Source of the DNA: Labilithrix sp.
GTDB taxonomy: Bacteria; Myxococcota_A; Polyangia; Polyangiales; Polyangiaceae
Direction: 5' to 3'
Assembly: GCA_019637155.1 (NCBI GenBank)
Contig: JAHBWE010000001.1
Location: 248,001-312,000 of the forward strand
Length of the DNA: 64,000 nt
This document shows, piece by piece, positions 33,323 through 42,587 of the stretch (its first letter is position 1; each line of letters starts with the position of its first letter). The position numbers and the translations under genes were made by a program. The notes under the pieces were generated by a model. That model did no database searches. It was not told where the DNA came from and saw only the letters and a program-made list of their open reading frames with translations.

Positions 33323-33413
33323 CCGTCTCTCTCGGGGGCCGGGGGCGGCGAGCGCGTCTTCGCGCGAGATTCCCCCGGCGGGGAGAGCTCGAGAGGGGCA
33401 GAGCCCCTCTCGA
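33323..33413. repeat. GC-rich dispersed repeat, copy A, with a perfect 11-bp hairpin
   Basis: Between two convergent genes lies a sequence also found, in two tandem copies, at 42387-42587. Order of parts: CTCTCGGGGG, a CCGGGGG/CCCCCGG stem around a GCGCG-type hairpin, GGGGAGAG, then the hairpin TCGAGAGGGGC-AGA-GCCCCTCTCGA (33389-33413). There is no long T-tract. It may be a bidirectional terminator or a REP-like element. Confidence 0.8.
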
Positions 33414-33415
33414 AA

Positions 33416-34507: not shown

Positions 34508-35086
34508 ATGCTCGATGTGTCCGCGAAGATGACGGCGGACGAGTTCCTCGCATGGGAGCGCGAGCAACCCGGCCGTCATCACTACGTTCGCGGCGACGTC
34601 GTCGAGGTGGCAGGCGGCTCGCCGCGGCACAACCGGCTGAGCGCGCGGGCGACGTCGGCCCTCGACCGTGCCGCGGTCGGCACGGCGTGCGGGGCGTTCA
34701 GCTCGGACCAGAAGCTCGGTCTCCACGACGATGAATTCGTTTGCGCCGACGGGAGCGTCGTCTGCGGGCCGCTTCAGCTGCGTCCCGGCACGAAGGACGT
34801 CATCACGAATCCGTCGCTCGTCGTCGAGGTCCTCTCGAAGAGCACGGAAGGGTATGACCGCGGGGACAAGCAGAGAGGTTACCTCGCGCTCCAGTCGCTC
34901 GTGCACCTCCTCTTCGTCTCCCAGCGCGAGGTGCGCGTCGAGGTGTATACGCGTCAGGACGACGGCAGCTTCCGTTTCGAGGTGCTCGGAGCCGGGGCCA
35001 CGATCGCGCTCCAGCAGCCCGCGGCGACGCTCTCGGTCGACGCGATCTACGCCGGCGTGTTCGATCTCCCGGCCGACGACGGATGA
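34508..35086 (+). CDS. Uma2-family (DUF820) PD-(D/E)XK nuclease-like protein
   Basis: A 192-residue protein from ATG 34508. The Uma2 fold is visible: MTADEFLAWEREQPGRHHYV, NRLSARATSALDRA, SSDQKLGL and the active-site stretch PSLVVEVLSKSTEGYDRGDKQRGY. Such proteins are abundant in cyanobacteria and Polyangia; their role is not settled. It sits between the two halves of a likely ACAD10/11-type pathway and appears unrelated to it. An in-frame ATG at 34469 is an alternative start. Confidence 0.85.
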   Translation: MLDVSAKMTADEFLAWEREQPGRHHYVRGDVVEVAGGSPRHNRLSARATSALDRAAVGTACGAFSSDQKLGLHDDEFVCADGSVVCGPLQLRPGTKDVITNPSLVVEVLSKSTEGYDRGDKQRGYLALQSLVHLLFVSQREVRVEVYTRQDDGSFRFEVLGAGATIALQQPAATLSVDAIYAGVFDLPADDG

Positions 35087-35128
35087 CGCCGTCCTTCGCG
35101 CCGAGGCGAGCGCGTATGCTGCTGCGTC

Positions 35129-36322
35129 ATGTCCTTCGGGTTTCCTCCGCAGCTGGCCGAGCTTCGTACGCGTGTTCGTGCCTTCGTCGATGACGAGGTG
35201 ATTCCTGCCGAGAAGGCGATCCTCAAAGAGGACGAGACGAAGGAGCGGACCACGCTGAACGCGCTCCGCGTGAAGGCGCGTGCGGCGGGGCTCTTCGTCC
35301 CGCACCTGCCCACCGAGCACGGCGGGCTCGGGCTCGGCATCATGGGGATGTGCGCGCTCTTTCGTGAGATGGGGCGCTCGCCCGTCGGCGCGGCGTGCTT
35401 CAACTGCGACGCGCCCGATCAAGGGAACATGGACCTCCTCCTCCGCTCCGGCAGCGAGGCGGTGAAGGCGCGGTGGCTCGCGCCGCTCGCGCGCGGCGAG
35501 ATCACGAGCGGCTTCTCGATGACGGAGCCCGCGCCCGGCGCCGGCGCCGATCCCTCGAACCTCAAGACGCGTGCGACGAAGACCGACGGAGGATGGGTCG
35601 TCGACGGTCACAAGTGGTACACGACCGGCGGCGGCGACGCGGCGTTCCTCATCGTGATGGCGCGGACGAGCGACGATCCGCGCACCGGCGCGACGATGTT
35701 CGTCGTCGACCGCAAGGCGAAGGGCGTGGAGCACGTGCGCGACGTCCCCGTGATGAGCCCGCCGATCTTGCAGCACCGCGAGGCGGAGCTCCGCTTCCAC
35801 GCGGTCGAGGTCGGCGACGACGCGGTGCTGGGCGAGGTGGGGCAGGGGTTCATGCTCGCGCAGAAGCGGCTCGTCCCCGCGCGGCTCACGCACTGCATGC
35901 GGTGGCTCGGGTGGGCCGATCGCGCGCTCGCGATGTGCCGCGACTACGTGCTGACGCGCGAGAGCTTCGGCAAGACGCTCGCGCATCACCAGCTGATCCA
36001 GAAGAAGATCGCCGACGCGGTGCACGGCATCCACGCCGGCAACCTGATGACGATCCACTGCGCCTCGATGCTCGAGGCCGGCCTCGACAAGGAGGCGCGG
36101 CCCTACTCGTCGATGGCGAAGAACCACGTCGCGAAGACGCTCTGCCAGCTCCTCGACGATGCGATCCAGATGCACGGCTCCCTCGGATACAGCGAAGATC
36201 TGCCGTTTTCCCTCTGGTATCGGTTCGCGCGGTCGGCGCGGATCGCCGACGGGCCCGACGAGGTGCACGACGTGGTGGTCGCGCGCGACTTCCTACGTGG
36301 CGCGTTGACGACGCTCGTCTGA
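35129..36322 (+). CDS. Acyl-CoA dehydrogenase (ACAD10/11-type)
   Basis: A 397-residue FAD enzyme. Features: LPTEHGGLGLGIMG, CDAPDQGNMDLL, SGFSMTEPAPGAGADPSNL, GHKWYTTGGGDA, and the C-terminal MHGSLGYSEDLPFSLWYRFARSARIADGPDEVH. The segment with APDQGNM and DPSNL is typical of the ACAD11/LvaC-like subgroup rather than short- or medium-chain dehydrogenases. With the nearby kinase (33416-34450) it could handle 4-hydroxyacyl-CoA via a phosphorylated intermediate. It starts a run of plus-strand genes with short gaps. Confidence 0.9.
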   Translation: MSFGFPPQLAELRTRVRAFVDDEVIPAEKAILKEDETKERTTLNALRVKARAAGLFVPHLPTEHGGLGLGIMGMCALFREMGRSPVGAACFNCDAPDQGNMDLLLRSGSEAVKARWLAPLARGEITSGFSMTEPAPGAGADPSNLKTRATKTDGGWVVDGHKWYTTGGGDAAFLIVMARTSDDPRTGATMFVVDRKAKGVEHVRDVPVMSPPILQHREAELRFHAVEVGDDAVLGEVGQGFMLAQKRLVPARLTHCMRWLGWADRALAMCRDYVLTRESFGKTLAHHQLIQKKIADAVHGIHAGNLMTIHCASMLEAGLDKEARPYSSMAKNHVAKTLCQLLDDAIQMHGSLGYSEDLPFSLWYRFARSARIADGPDEVHDVVVARDFLRGALTTLV

Positions 36323-36341
36323 TCTTCGATCCTGCCGCCCC

Positions 36342-37502
36342 ATGAATTCTGCGGCCGAAGTCCTCGACCTGCTCGCCAAGGACAGCAGCGAAGGCACAGT
36401 CACGCGCGTCTGCGCCGAGATCGCCGACTGGGCGAAGGAGGGGCACGCCGCCGAGCTCACGAGCTTGGCGCGCGGCCTCGAGGCCGCCGCGACGTCCGAC
36501 AAGACCGACGCCTACGAGACCGTCGTCGATCTCGTCGAGGACCAGCTCGCGTTGACGCAGGATCCGGTCGCGATCGACGGCATCCTCGCGCTCGCGAGCG
36601 AGCCGCGGCTGAAGTCCCTCGTCGATCCTCGCACCGAGGGGGAGCGCCAGTGCGCGTTCGCCTCGCGCCTCGGGTACGCGCAGACGAAGGAGGCGTTCGC
36701 GGCCGCCTTCGATCGCGCGGGCGGCAAGCAGCGCGAGCTGTTCGCGTGCTGGATGCACGAGCTGGTGCTCCGGCGCGTGAGCCTCGCCTCCGTCCCCGCA
36801 GCGCAGGCGCTCGCGGAGGAGCTCGCGAAGGACGGTCATCCGCTCGGCGGCCTGCCGCTCGCGCTGCGACCGCTCGAACGCGAAGCACCTTCGTACATGC
36901 CGCTCTACGGCGATCGCGGTCTCACCGGCGTGCTCGAGGCGCTCGCGAGCGGCCCGATGTCGGCGCGCTCGATGCCGCCGCCGGACGAGAGCAAGGACGT
37001 GAAGATGACGGAGGTCGCTGTCGACCCCGCGATCGCGAGCGCGGTGAAGCCGTGGGGCTCGGGGAAGAAGGGCAAGATCGAGATGCGCGCGTTCGAGGTC
37101 ACGGCCCCGATCGAGGCGCGCCTGCTCGGCAGCTGGCTCCTCCGCGCGCTCCCGCTCGAGTCGACGAAGGACGTCCCGCGCTCGGGCCTCGAGTGCAAGC
37201 GCGTGACGACCGACGCCGTGTTCGGCACCCTCTTCGCCGCGGCGGCGAACGGCGGCGCGCACTCGACCGGCCTCGGCGGCGCGTACGGCCGGCGCGCGGC
37301 GTGGACGTCGCTCGCCGTCCTCGCCGGCGCGGCGCCGGACGCGAGCATCGAGGCGATCGAGGCCGCCGCGGGGCGCGCGGTGTTCCTCTCCTTCGGCGCG
37401 TCGGGACCGTGGTTCCACGACGTCGCGTGGGACCTCGGCGTCCTCGCGCTCCACGGCGACGGGCGAAAGGTCGTCGTCCTCGCCGCGACCGACGCCGAGT
37501 GA
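36342..37502 (+). CDS. Hypothetical protein, possibly DUF6183-like
   Basis: A 386-residue soluble protein. The first 200 residues are helical and Ala/Leu-rich (AELTSLARGLEAAATSDKTD; RQCAFASRLGYAQTKEAFAAAF), and the C-terminal half contains EMRAFEVTAPIEARLLGSWLLRALPLE and AANGGAHSTGLGGAYGRRAAW. No signal peptide or catalytic motif is evident. From memory the latter segment resembles DUF6183, but I am unsure. It lies 13 bases upstream of the HemQ-like gene and 19 after the dehydrogenase, so a shared transcript is likely. Confidence 0.72.
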   Translation: MNSAAEVLDLLAKDSSEGTVTRVCAEIADWAKEGHAAELTSLARGLEAAATSDKTDAYETVVDLVEDQLALTQDPVAIDGILALASEPRLKSLVDPRTEGERQCAFASRLGYAQTKEAFAAAFDRAGGKQRELFACWMHELVLRRVSLASVPAAQALAEELAKDGHPLGGLPLALRPLEREAPSYMPLYGDRGLTGVLEALASGPMSARSMPPPDESKDVKMTEVAVDPAIASAVKPWGSGKKGKIEMRAFEVTAPIEARLLGSWLLRALPLESTKDVPRSGLECKRVTTDAVFGTLFAAAANGGAHSTGLGGAYGRRAAWTSLAVLAGAAPDASIEAIEAAAGRAVFLSFGASGPWFHDVAWDLGVLALHGDGRKVVVLAATDAE

Positions 37503-37515
37503 TAAGGACGAGAGC

Positions 37516-38295
37516 ATGAGCGAGGCTTCCACTCAGCCAGGCCTGCCGACGATCGACGTCAACGAGTACGGCGGCAAGAAGGACGGCGTGAAGCAGCAGA
37601 TGAACCGGCGGCTGTTCATGCAGCTGCTCGTGTTCCGCACGCGCCCCGGTCCGCACGCGCTGAGCGGCGGTCCGCACAGCGCGCCCGAGTCCCTCGGGCA
37701 GGAGCTCCTCGACGCGCTGCGGAAGCGGAAGACCGCGGGCGTCGTTTACGCCGACACGATGGACCCGCGCGGGCTCGCGCTCCTCACGTGGAGCGAGGAC
37801 CCGAGCCACTTCGTGAAGGAGGTGCGCCCGCTCTTCACCGAGTCGTTCATGGCGCGGGTGAAGCTGCGTCACGACTACGGGATGCTCGGGCGTACGTACG
37901 CGACGGGACACGAGCCGGAGCTCGAGTGGACGCTCCTCAAGCGGCCGATCGAGAACGTCACGAACCCCTCCTATCCGTGGCACGTCTGGTACCCGCTCCG
38001 GCGAAAAGGGACCTTCGCGAAGCTCGAGCCGATCGAGCAGAGCCACACGCTCCGTGAGCACGCGGCGCTCGGCATCGCCTACGGCCAGGCCGAGCTCGCG
38101 CACGACGTCCGGCTCGCGTGCCACGGCATCGACGCGGGTGACAACGAGTTCGTGATCGGCCTCGTCGGCAAGGACCTCCACCCGCTCTCGCACCTCGTGC
38201 AGGCGATGCGCAAGACGCGTCAGACGAGCGAGTTCATCGAGAAGATGGGACCGTTCTTCGTCGGCTGGGTCCTCGGGACGAGCACCGGCGCATGA
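37516..38295 (+). CDS. Chlorite-dismutase/HemQ-family heme protein
   Basis: A 259-residue protein. The family pattern is clear: NRRLFMQLLVFRT (30-42), MDPRGLALLTWSEDP, RHDYGMLGRTYATGHE, SYPWHVWYPLRRKGTFAKLEP, EQSHTLREHAALG with the likely proximal-side histidine, and GIDAGDNEFVIGLVGKDLHPLSHLVQAMRKTRQTS. Relatives are chlorite dismutase, dye-decolourising peroxidases and coproheme decarboxylase (HemQ). The catalytic arginine of chlorite dismutases is not obvious here. The ATGA overlap with an FmdE-like lipoprotein downstream is unusual for HemQ. Confidence 0.85.
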   Translation: MSEASTQPGLPTIDVNEYGGKKDGVKQQMNRRLFMQLLVFRTRPGPHALSGGPHSAPESLGQELLDALRKRKTAGVVYADTMDPRGLALLTWSEDPSHFVKEVRPLFTESFMARVKLRHDYGMLGRTYATGHEPELEWTLLKRPIENVTNPSYPWHVWYPLRRKGTFAKLEPIEQSHTLREHAALGIAYGQAELAHDVRLACHGIDAGDNEFVIGLVGKDLHPLSHLVQAMRKTRQTSEFIEKMGPFFVGWVLGTSTGA

Positions 38296-38804
38296 GGCTC
38301 TGGCCGCTCGCGGCGCTCCTCGTCGCGTGCGCTTCGACCCCGGCACCTGCGCCCGCTCCGGCGGTCGGGACGGCGCCCGCTCCGGCGGTCGATCCGCTCG
38401 ACGAGGTCGCGCGCGTTCATGGTGCGCCGGGGCCTTGGGCGGTCGCGGGGTACCGCATGAGCGAGTACGCGCTGAACAAGCTCGGGCTCTCGCGCGGCAG
38501 CTTCGACCTCCGGATCACGCATCACACGCCGCCGAAGGTGAAGTACTCGTGCATCGCGGACGGCGCGGCGGCGCAGTCGGGGGCGAGCCTCGGGAAGCTG
38601 AACCTCTCGCTCGTCGACGCGTCGGAAGAGGACGTCCTCACCGAGTACGAGAACAAGAAGACAGGACAGAAGGTCGTTCTCCGACCGGCGGCGTCGTTCC
38701 GCGCGCGCTACGCGGACACGCCGCGCGACAAGGCGCGCGAGCTCGGGCGCGAGGTGCTCGGCCTTCCGGCGGAGCAGGTCTTCGAAGAGGTGCCCTCGTC
38801 GTGA
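38292..38804 (+). CDS. FmdE-domain lipoprotein
   Basis: A 170-residue protein with ATG overlapping the HemQ-like stop. Lipobox LLVAC gives Cys13, followed by an Ala/Pro linker to about 40. The rest matches the FmdE domain (subunit E of formylmethanofuran dehydrogenase and stand-alone relatives): HGAPGPWAVAGYRM where the family has HGHxCPG, and PPKVKYSCIADGAAAQSGASLGKLNLSL. The usual cysteine in the first motif is absent. A membrane-anchored periplasmic version suggests a metal- or cofactor-binding role, not methanofuran chemistry. Coupled to the next gene by GTGA. Confidence 0.75.
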   Translation: MRLWPLAALLVACASTPAPAPAPAVGTAPAPAVDPLDEVARVHGAPGPWAVAGYRMSEYALNKLGLSRGSFDLRITHHTPPKVKYSCIADGAAAQSGASLGKLNLSLVDASEEDVLTEYENKKTGQKVVLRPAASFRARYADTPRDKARELGREVLGLPAEQVFEEVPSS

Positions 38805-39208
38805 CGGCGGCCTGGATCACGGGGTGGCTCGCGATCGTCGCGATCGTGTTCTCCGTGGTCGTCCCCGTCGTGCAGCGCGTCCGCTTCGGCAAGCGCGCCG
38901 CGCCGGGCTCGCCTTCGATCCGCACGCACGTGTACGTCGGGCTCGCGACGGCGGCGCTCGCGTTCCTCCACACCATCGTCGTGATCCCGGAGCTCGGCTC
39001 CCCGGCCGCGACCGCAGGCGGGATGACCGCGCTCCTCCCCGGCGGCATCGCGTTCTTCCTCCTCGTCGCGCACGCGGGCCTCGGCCTGCAGCTCCGCAAC
39101 CCGAAGCTGAAGGACCGTACCCGCGTCCGCCGCTCCCACACCACCACGGCGATCCTCATCAGCCTCGCCGTCGCCGCCCACGCGCTCGCGTTGCGCGCGG
39201 CGGGTTGA
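38801..39208 (+). CDS. Four-helix membrane protein with diheme-type His pairs
   Basis: I place the start at GTG 38801, overlapping the previous stop, giving 135 residues and about four membrane helices (7-26, 42-63, 76-95, 113-131). Five histidines occur: 43 and 57, spaced 14, in the second helix; 113 and 127, spaced 14, in the fourth; and 91. Two helices each with His-x13-His is the arrangement that binds two stacked b-type hemes in ferric reductases and NADPH oxidases. No flavin or NAD(P)H domain is present, so a partner protein is needed. A minimal membrane cytochrome is likely. Confidence 0.75.
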   Translation: MTAAWITGWLAIVAIVFSVVVPVVQRVRFGKRAAPGSPSIRTHVYVGLATAALAFLHTIVVIPELGSPAATAGGMTALLPGGIAFFLLVAHAGLGLQLRNPKLKDRTRVRRSHTTTAILISLAVAAHALALRAAG

Positions 39209-39217
39209 GCGAAGCCG

Positions 39218-39565
39218 TCAGTTCAAGCTGCTCGGCTTGCGGGTGGCGAAGACCTCGTCCCAGTTGTCGCGGTAGGCCTTCGTCGCGACCTGGGCTGGGC
39301 CCTTGTGCGTGGGCGGAAGGGCGGGCGCTTGCGCGGGCGGAAGGGCGGGGGCGCGGTAGCTGTCGGTGACGTCGCAGACGCGGGGGTTCTCTTTTCGCGG
39401 CTGGAGCGTGACGAGCTCGCCGGTGAGGGGCCGGCCCTCTTCGACGTTGCGGAGCTCGCCCGCTTCGAGGCGCTGATCGCGCGCGCGGAGGACGTGAACG
39501 CCGCCGCCGTCGGCGGTGGGCGGACCGAGCAGTACGACGTCTTTCGGCTTCTCGTCCTCCGCCAT
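39218..39565 (-). CDS. Hypothetical 115-residue protein
   Basis: The protein begins MAEDEKPKDVVLLGPPTADG and has GRPLTGELVTLQPRKENPRVCDV, then a stretch with two APALPP(A/T) repeats and an AYRDNWDEVFATRK end. No signal peptide or membrane segment. The strong internal composition bias toward Pro in the middle suggests a flexible linker. I do not recognise the family. It is followed at 17 bases by the next minus-strand gene, so the two may be an operon. Confidence 0.65.
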   Translation of the reverse strand: MAEDEKPKDVVLLGPPTADGGGVHVLRARDQRLEAGELRNVEEGRPLTGELVTLQPRKENPRVCDVTDSYRAPALPPAQAPALPPTHKGPAQVATKAYRDNWDEVFATRKPSSLN

Positions 39566-39583
39566 GAAATGAGGATAGCCCGC

Positions 39584-40168
39584 TCAGCGGTAAGGCGCAT
39601 GCGGCGCGTGACGCGCGGCGATGAGCACGAGGGCGTCGCGGGCGGCGTCGAGGACGATGGGATCGCTCTCCGTTCCGCGCCACGAGATCGTCACCTTGTG
39701 CCCGTCGGAGCGGAGCCATACGCCGGTGCGGAGCTCGTCGAGCTTGAGGAGGAGGGGGCGCACCTCGCGCAGGACGTCGGCGTCCTCGGCCGCTCCTTCG
39801 AGCACGACGTACGCGCGATCGAAGTCGGCGTCGCCGAGCGCGAGGACGCCTTCGCGCTCCCACACGAACGCGCCGCGCTGACCCACCGACAGCACGGCGG
39901 CGCGGCCGCGCGGCGCGTCGGTCGAGACGCGCGTGCGGATGTCGCCGTGGAGGCGATAGAGGTCGATCGCGAAGACGATGCCGTCCTTCGTCCCGTTCAC
40001 GCGCGGGCTCGCGCCGCGTGGCTTCGACGTCGCAGGGACGAAGAGGAGCCCGCGCGAAACGGCGTAGAGGTTCAGCGCGCGCGCCGCCGCCGTCCGGCGG
40101 TGAACGCCGCTCCCCGCCGCCCACGCGGCGAGGGTCAACGTCGCCCCGAGGACGAGGAGCTCGAGCAC
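39584..40168 (-). CDS. Hypothetical protein with one N-terminal helix
   Basis: A 194-residue protein with one hydrophobic segment (residues 2-20) and a soluble domain of alternating strands (IVFAIDLYRLHGDIRT, AAVLSVGQRGAFVWEREG, VWLRSDGHKVTISWRG). It probably has a periplasmic or cytoplasmic beta domain anchored to the membrane. Family not recognised. Pairs with the 115-residue gene downstream. Confidence 0.65.
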   Translation of the reverse strand: MLELLVLGATLTLAAWAAGSGVHRRTAAARALNLYAVSRGLLFVPATSKPRGASPRVNGTKDGIVFAIDLYRLHGDIRTRVSTDAPRGRAAVLSVGQRGAFVWEREGVLALGDADFDRAYVVLEGAAEDADVLREVRPLLLKLDELRTGVWLRSDGHKVTISWRGTESDPIVLDAARDALVLIAARHAPHAPYR

Positions 40169-42386: not shown

Positions 42387-42493
42387 ACCCCTCTCGGGGG
42401 TCCGGGGGCGTCGTAGCGCGCGCCCAGCGCGCGCGAAGAACCCCCCCGGCGGGGAGAGCTTGAGAGGGGCAGAGCGGCAGAGCCCCTCTCGAA
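42387..42493. repeat. GC-rich dispersed repeat, copy B1
   Basis: First of two tandem copies, 103 bases apart, of the element also at 33323-33413. It has an 8-base insertion (AGAGCGGC) in the loop of the terminal hairpin (42460-42492), where the closing pair reads T opposite G. The neighbouring sequence contains the palindrome GCGCGCG-CCCA-GCGCGCGC. Confidence 0.85.
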
Positions 42494-42494
42494 T

Positions 42495-42587
42495 CTGCGG
42501 GGGTCCGGGGGCGTCGTAGCGCGCGCCCAGCGCGCGCGAAGAAACCCCCGGCGGGGAGAGCTTGAGAGGGGCAGAGCCCCTCTCAAA
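42495..42587. repeat. GC-rich dispersed repeat, copy B2, with a perfect 11-bp hairpin
   Basis: Terminal hairpin TTGAGAGGGGC-AGA-GCCCCTCTCAA at 42562-42586. Its second pair is T-A where copy A has C-G, a compensating change. The minus-strand phosphatase gene takes its TGA stop (42583-42585) from this arm. Confidence 0.85.

Follow-up and report, generated by a model that had tools for sequence, protein, structure and literature searches.

The coproporphyrin route of heme synthesis has been described mainly for Gram-positive bacteria, and the gene order hemE-hemH-hemY is known from Bacillus. Regarding the myxobacteria, their oxidase PgoX, studied in M. xanthus, has been assigned to the protoporphyrin route, and the Deltaproteobacteria have been noted as exceptions among the Proteobacteria (PMC10740692). 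Our literature search found no paper on a coproheme decarboxylase (ChdC, also HemQ) in myxobacteria, and chlorite dismutase, Myxococc and heme biosynthesis searched together led only to a paper on CgoN (PMC10965808), in which Myxococc occurs once, in a reference title. For the chlorite dismutases (Clds), it has been established that the functional enzymes are defined by a proximal Glu and a distal Arg (PMC4793301). Another family to be considered here is FmdE, in whose solved members two His and two Cys hold the metal (PMC2954224).

The locus of this study lies in a window of 64,000 nucleotides, that is, the whole stretch of DNA that was analysed, which is part of a 10.1 Mb genome (G000) from a Labilithrix-like member of the Polyangiaceae. 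Three genes are concerned, namely gene 1 (HemQ-like), gene 2 (the FmdE lipoprotein) and gene 3 (the 135-aa membrane protein, hereafter also TM), and they close a same-strand run which is opened by the genes of an acyl-CoA dehydrogenase and of a DUF6183 protein.

35129..36322, + strand: acyl-CoA dehydrogenase, first gene of the same-strand run (PF00441, PF02770, PF02771; synteny)
36342..37502, + strand: DUF6183 protein (PF19681, 6.8e-81), ending 13 nt upstream of gene 1
37516..38295, + strand: gene 1, divergent chlorite-dismutase-fold protein, probable HemQ/ChdC, 259 aa (PF06778, structure model, fold matches)
38292..38804, + strand: gene 2, lipoprotein with an FmdE domain whose metal site is degenerate, 170 aa (PF02663, ortholog alignment)
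38801..39208, + strand: gene 3, membrane protein of four helices, probably a minimal diheme b-type cytochrome, 135 aa, GTG start (invariant His, structure model)

Gene 1 overlaps gene 2 in the ATGA at 38292-38295, and gene 2 overlaps gene 3 in the GTGA at 38801-38804. These overlaps had been reported in the initial annotation of the sequence, and our analysis confirmed them along with its coordinates, its three gene families and its histidine spacing; absent from that annotation were the invariant H91 of gene 3, the longer same-strand run and the confinement of the trio to a few species. The DUF6183 gene is also found upstream of HemQ in G002, G004, G005, G006, G007 and G009. The region 35000-39700 was scanned for sigma-70 promoters and terminators without a hit, a result that says little in this organism. 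Further away in the window, a GC-rich intergenic repeat was observed at 33367-33414 and 42395-42587, with a 59-nt unit occurring twice at a spacing of 103 nt, and a 48-nt repeat that overlaps this unit occurs once more at a distance of about 9 kb.

For gene 1, a HemQ/chlorite-dismutase fold had been proposed at the outset, and the best 15 fold matches in the PDB bear this out. The Pfam model Chlor_dismutase (PF06778) matches the C-terminal half only, at 2.5e-10 and 40.8 bits (cut-off 25). The NCBIfam HemQ equivalog models score gene 1 far below their thresholds, at 25.8 bits (cut-off 235) and 25.3 bits (cut-off 253), these cut-offs being tests for known subfamilies and not a defining feature of ChdC activity. 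A single-sequence search of the PDB with gene 1 returned no match; a profile of 29 orthologues reached E = 0.0006, again with the C-terminal half alone aligned. The structure model, which was built from the 29 orthologues (pLDDT 88.9, pTM 0.86), has the two-domain fold of the Cld superfamily, and its 15 best matches in the PDB consist of HemQ/ChdC structures and the T. thermophilus homologue 1vdh (Z 17.8-19.6), followed by chlorite dismutases at Z about 17 and by DyP peroxidases at about 13. Gene 1 carries no signal sequence.

The fold by itself would also suit another enzyme. The Z gap between the ChdC and the chlorite dismutase matches is small, with the Clds at about 17 lying close to the ChdCs at 18-19.6, and gene 1 could be read as a chlorite dismutase or a Cld-like peroxidase that detoxifies oxychlorine species or peroxide and takes no part in heme synthesis. 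In the profile alignment Asp197 apparently occupies the position of the distal Gln187 of Listeria ChdC, and two residues past it stands an invariant Arg199, which may be a distal Arg of the Cld kind and whose nearness to the distal position also favours the detoxification reading. Against this reading, Y159, together with H182, is invariant in the 29 orthologues, and the two residues align with the Tyr of the YPM/YPF motif and with the proximal His of known ChdCs, respectively; the tyrosine, which thus matches the catalytic one of ChdC, aligns with Tyr135 of the C. diphtheriae enzyme (a residue that is changed in the Y135A entry).

The heme pathway of the order bears on the same question. Among 58 relatives HemF was detected in none, and HemN exceeded its cut-off in one only, namely G034. 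The HemN profile hits two proteins of G000, neither of which was accepted as a possible CPO: the first belongs to HemW, whose cut-off of 205.4 it exceeds with 255.6 bits, and the second is another radical-SAM protein that falls below every cut-off listed. G000 has a hemE-hemH-hemY gene run (L119:8530-11836, G000:C2), in which HemY scores 297.8 bits against CgoX of B. subtilis (3i6d) and 206.9 against PgoX of M. xanthus (2ivd), and HemH scores 134.6 bits against the ferrochelatase of B. subtilis type, about 120-132 bits against most entries named coproporphyrin III ferrochelatase, and about 85 against the human enzyme, so that it stands nearer to the Bacillus/Listeria-type ferrochelatases. Since a CgoX-like HemY and a CpfC-like HemH are present and both HemF and HemN are missing, the coproporphyrin route is indicated, and this route requires a ChdC.

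Homologues of gene 1 occur in 50 of the 58 genomes, usually as the sole Cld-family gene. Of the eight genomes that lack it, G022 and G033 possess a canonical HemQ and G034 possesses HemN, so that all three replacements fall among these eight (p = 0.0018, relatedness uncorrected). The canonical HemQ of G033 has its closest match in actinobacterial ChdC and shares 44% identity with that of G022. In G034 (L120:2212-5863, G034:C81), the genes of HemN, HemH and HemY are direct neighbours, and a Cld-family gene is absent; this genome has apparently switched to the protoporphyrin route. G025, G026, G027, G051 and G056 possess HemH but lack a Cld-family gene, and no HemN exceeds its cut-off in them; for these five, two of which are 82-88% complete, another route or an incomplete assembly must be assumed.

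Also against a detoxifying role stand the near-universal presence of gene 1 in an order without HemF and HemN but with HemH and HemY, and its replacement by canonical HemQ or by HemN; we regard that role for gene 1 as very improbable. Gene 1 is instead the probable, though divergent, coproheme decarboxylase of this Labilithrix-like organism, as its sequence, its model and its genomic setting together suggest. What tells against the assignment is the weak sequence similarity to known ChdCs, the apparent Asp197 at the distal position and the five genomes with HemH but with neither kind of final enzyme. On such an assignment, HemE would lead to coproporphyrinogen III, HemY of the CgoX type would oxidise it, and HemH of the CpfC type would insert the iron; gene 1, holding the iron by the proximal His182 and using Tyr159 as the catalytic tyrosine, would then use H2O2 to strip off the carboxyls of two propionates, which yields heme b. 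We infer this catalysis from the residues and the pathway context described above.

Turning to gene 3, no Pfam family matches it above cut-off. The initial annotation had described about four membrane helices, with His43/57 and His113/127 each 14 residues apart, and the model and 17 orthologues agree with this description. The model (mean pLDDT 87) consists of helices 2-29, 38-65, 68-97 and 106-134, and H43, H57, H91 (in helix 3), H113 and H127 are invariant in the 17 orthologues. As H43 in helix 2 and H113 in helix 4 stand close to the beginning of their helix, and H57 and H127 follow some two-thirds of the way down, the pairs lie at matching depths; the structure prediction proposed with the initial annotation thus gave a four-helix bundle in which a diheme arrangement is likely. 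Conservation clusters on one face of helix 2 (permutation p 0.0005) and of helix 4 (p 0.005), with H57 lying 87 degrees off the centre of the conserved face. Loops 1-2 and 3-4 are basic, which suggests by the positive-inside rule that they face the cytoplasm, and H43/H113 would accordingly be placed towards the cytoplasmic side and H57/H127 towards the periplasmic side.

It is also conceivable that gene 3 is not a cytochrome and that its histidines bind another metal or are structural, a reading which we find fairly unlikely. What speaks for it is that neither profile nor fold searches gave a significant match to a characterised cytochrome. An hhalign comparison of the gene 3 profile with E. 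coli MsrQ and YodB gave no match, and Foldseek with the model gave none at E <= 0.001; among the VIA-align matches listed there are no ferric reductase or NADPH oxidase entries, the top ones being soluble helical bundles, and cytochrome b6 appears at Z 9.8 (1q90_B) and Z 9.7 (2e74_A), where values below 13 are helical-bundle background. The invariance of H91 in the close orthologues points in the same direction, as does FA_desaturase, a weak Pfam match common to most members of the family. The two histidine pairs, each spaced by 14 residues and set at corresponding depths of their helices, are harder to reconcile with it, and so are the weak but repeated sub-cut-off matches to Ferric_reduct and cytochrome b561, each in 5 of the 17 members.

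A distant relative weighs further against a non-cytochrome. In a phylum-wide search a single one was found (G246, E = 5.6e-4), where the gene 3-like domain is the C-terminal part of an NAD(P)H-flavin reductase fusion of 663 aa, which also has pyridine-nucleotide reductase and BFD [2Fe-2S] domains. With hhalign the first two helices of gene 3 were aligned to this domain (E = 1.7e-5, 78.6% probability), and the MAFFT alignment shows that it keeps all four paired histidines and not H91. At L133:4119-7530 (G246:C3) the fusion gene adjoins that of a cytochrome with ten CxxCH, with a globin and a NirB-like gene nearby, and the locus is a candidate trans-membrane electron route. That the four histidines persist in a flavin-reductase fusion whose gene neighbours that of a multiheme cytochrome c agrees with a diheme domain that carries electrons. 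Gene 3 is therefore probably a minimal diheme b-type cytochrome, as judged from the model and the orthologues; H43 would be paired with H113 and H57 with H127 in heme binding, and electrons would be passed across the inner membrane.

Gene 2 matches FmdE (PF02663) at 5.8e-15 and 56 bits (gathering score 22.9), with a weak match to 2gvi, and its N-terminus carries the lipoprotein signal ALLVAC. It keeps H43 and C87, and the second His and Cys of FHGHxC are lost in all orthologues aligned; a solved member of the family, Q2LQ23_SYNAS, likewise lacks two of the four metal ligands. The product would be exported as a lipoprotein of FmdE fold whose metal site is reduced, and it may have a metal-related role. 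In the orthologues L065, L066, L067, L070 and L071, His-rich GHGHGH linkers follow the lipobox; in the window's own gene 2 a Pro/Ala-rich linker stands in their place.

The remaining question is whether the three genes work together. The initial annotation had proposed a three-gene system, in which the HemQ-fold protein, the lipoprotein and the diheme membrane protein would cooperate across the membrane in electron or oxygen-species chemistry that depends on heme. The translational overlaps favour such a system, and so does the adjacency of HemQ and TM, with a variable middle gene or none, in 9 of 12 congeneric genomes. In addition, TM and FmdE-like genes co-occur above expectation (7 shared among 58 genomes, Fisher p = 0.004, uncorrected for relatedness), and all 17 genomes with TM also have gene 1 (p = 0.05).

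The arrangement itself, however, proved to be a local one. The full HemQ-FmdE-TM trio is present only in G000, G003, G004 and G006, four species of one genus, and the middle gene varies: HemQ and TM are adjacent without it in G009 and G010, a 265-aa protein takes its place in G002, G005 and G007, and in G011 HemQ and FmdE stay together with TM elsewhere. The protein of about 265 aa that replaces the FmdE gene (L022:5180-5992, L023:4250-5065, L025:5282-5992) has no Pfam match and, by eye, shows MORN/YwqK-like repeats. HemQ and TM are apart in the other genera that have both (G012, G019, G020, G030, G042, G055) and in G001. In G030, which is a single contig, the HemQ orthologue maps to 10.24 Mb; that of TM follows at 10.60 Mb, a distance of about 0.36 Mb, and that of FmdE at 11.83 Mb, about 1.6 Mb from HemQ. 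Thus the neighbourhood recurs within the genus and, contrary to what a conserved system would lead one to expect, in none of the genomes outside it.

Several further points weaken the idea of a three-part system: 33 genomes have gene 1 without a detected TM, gene 1 has no signal sequence but gene 2 is exported, and the surrounding genes of the genus are also syntenic, which makes the HemQ-TM adjacency there weak evidence of joint function. We consider such a system distinctly unlikely. The adjacency in 9 of 12 congeneric genomes nevertheless leaves room for a functional link, and there is a small chance that within the genus gene 3 is tied to gene 1, by supplying or removing electrons or peroxide at the last heme step or by receiving the new heme directly. 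Of the earlier proposals, joint expression survives as probable co-transcription in a few species, which would arise through local gene order and not from a single machine; of the trans-membrane heme-dependent pathway, the likely diheme arrangement of gene 3 stands, and HemQ is better explained as a cytoplasmic enzyme of heme synthesis.

Taken together, we have good confidence in a joint reading in which gene 1 is the ChdC of the coproporphyrin route, gene 3 a separate minimal diheme cytochrome b and gene 2 an exported FmdE-fold lipoprotein, the three forming no one machine. The locus most likely comprises the gene of a divergent ChdC, accompanied by those of a degenerate FmdE lipoprotein and of what is probably a minimal diheme cytochrome, which look like variable neighbours. 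If gene 1 is a ChdC, most of an order of Gram-negative bacteria with large genomes uses the coproporphyrin route, and the current annotation models score the enzyme of that order far below their cut-offs. Gene 3, for its part, would form a trans-membrane diheme unit that stands alone and is very small, and would make a handy test protein.

Compared with the known ChdC/HemQ enzymes of the Listeria, Geobacillus, Corynebacterium and Streptomyces types, gene 1 shares the two-domain Cld fold, the YP-motif tyrosine and the proximal histidine, as well as a genomic setting in which CgoX- and CpfC-type enzymes are present and CPO is absent; it differs in its divergent sequence, in an apparently different distal residue and in its host, which belongs to a Gram-negative order. 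With the chlorite dismutases of Nitrospira and Dechloromonas it has the fold in common (Z about 17), but its genomic context is heme synthesis. Gene 2 retains the core domain and the HG and CxxDG motifs of the FmdE family (PF02663; 2glz/2gvi), and departs from that family in being a lipoprotein, in the loss of two of four metal ligands and in the His-rich N-terminal linkers of several orthologues. Gene 3, finally, resembles the diheme domains of ferric reductase, cytochrome b561 and cytochrome b6 in having four helices, two of them with His pairs 14 apart at matching depths, and is unlike them in its length of only 135 aa, in the absence of a significant profile match and in its stand-alone form in the Polyangiales.
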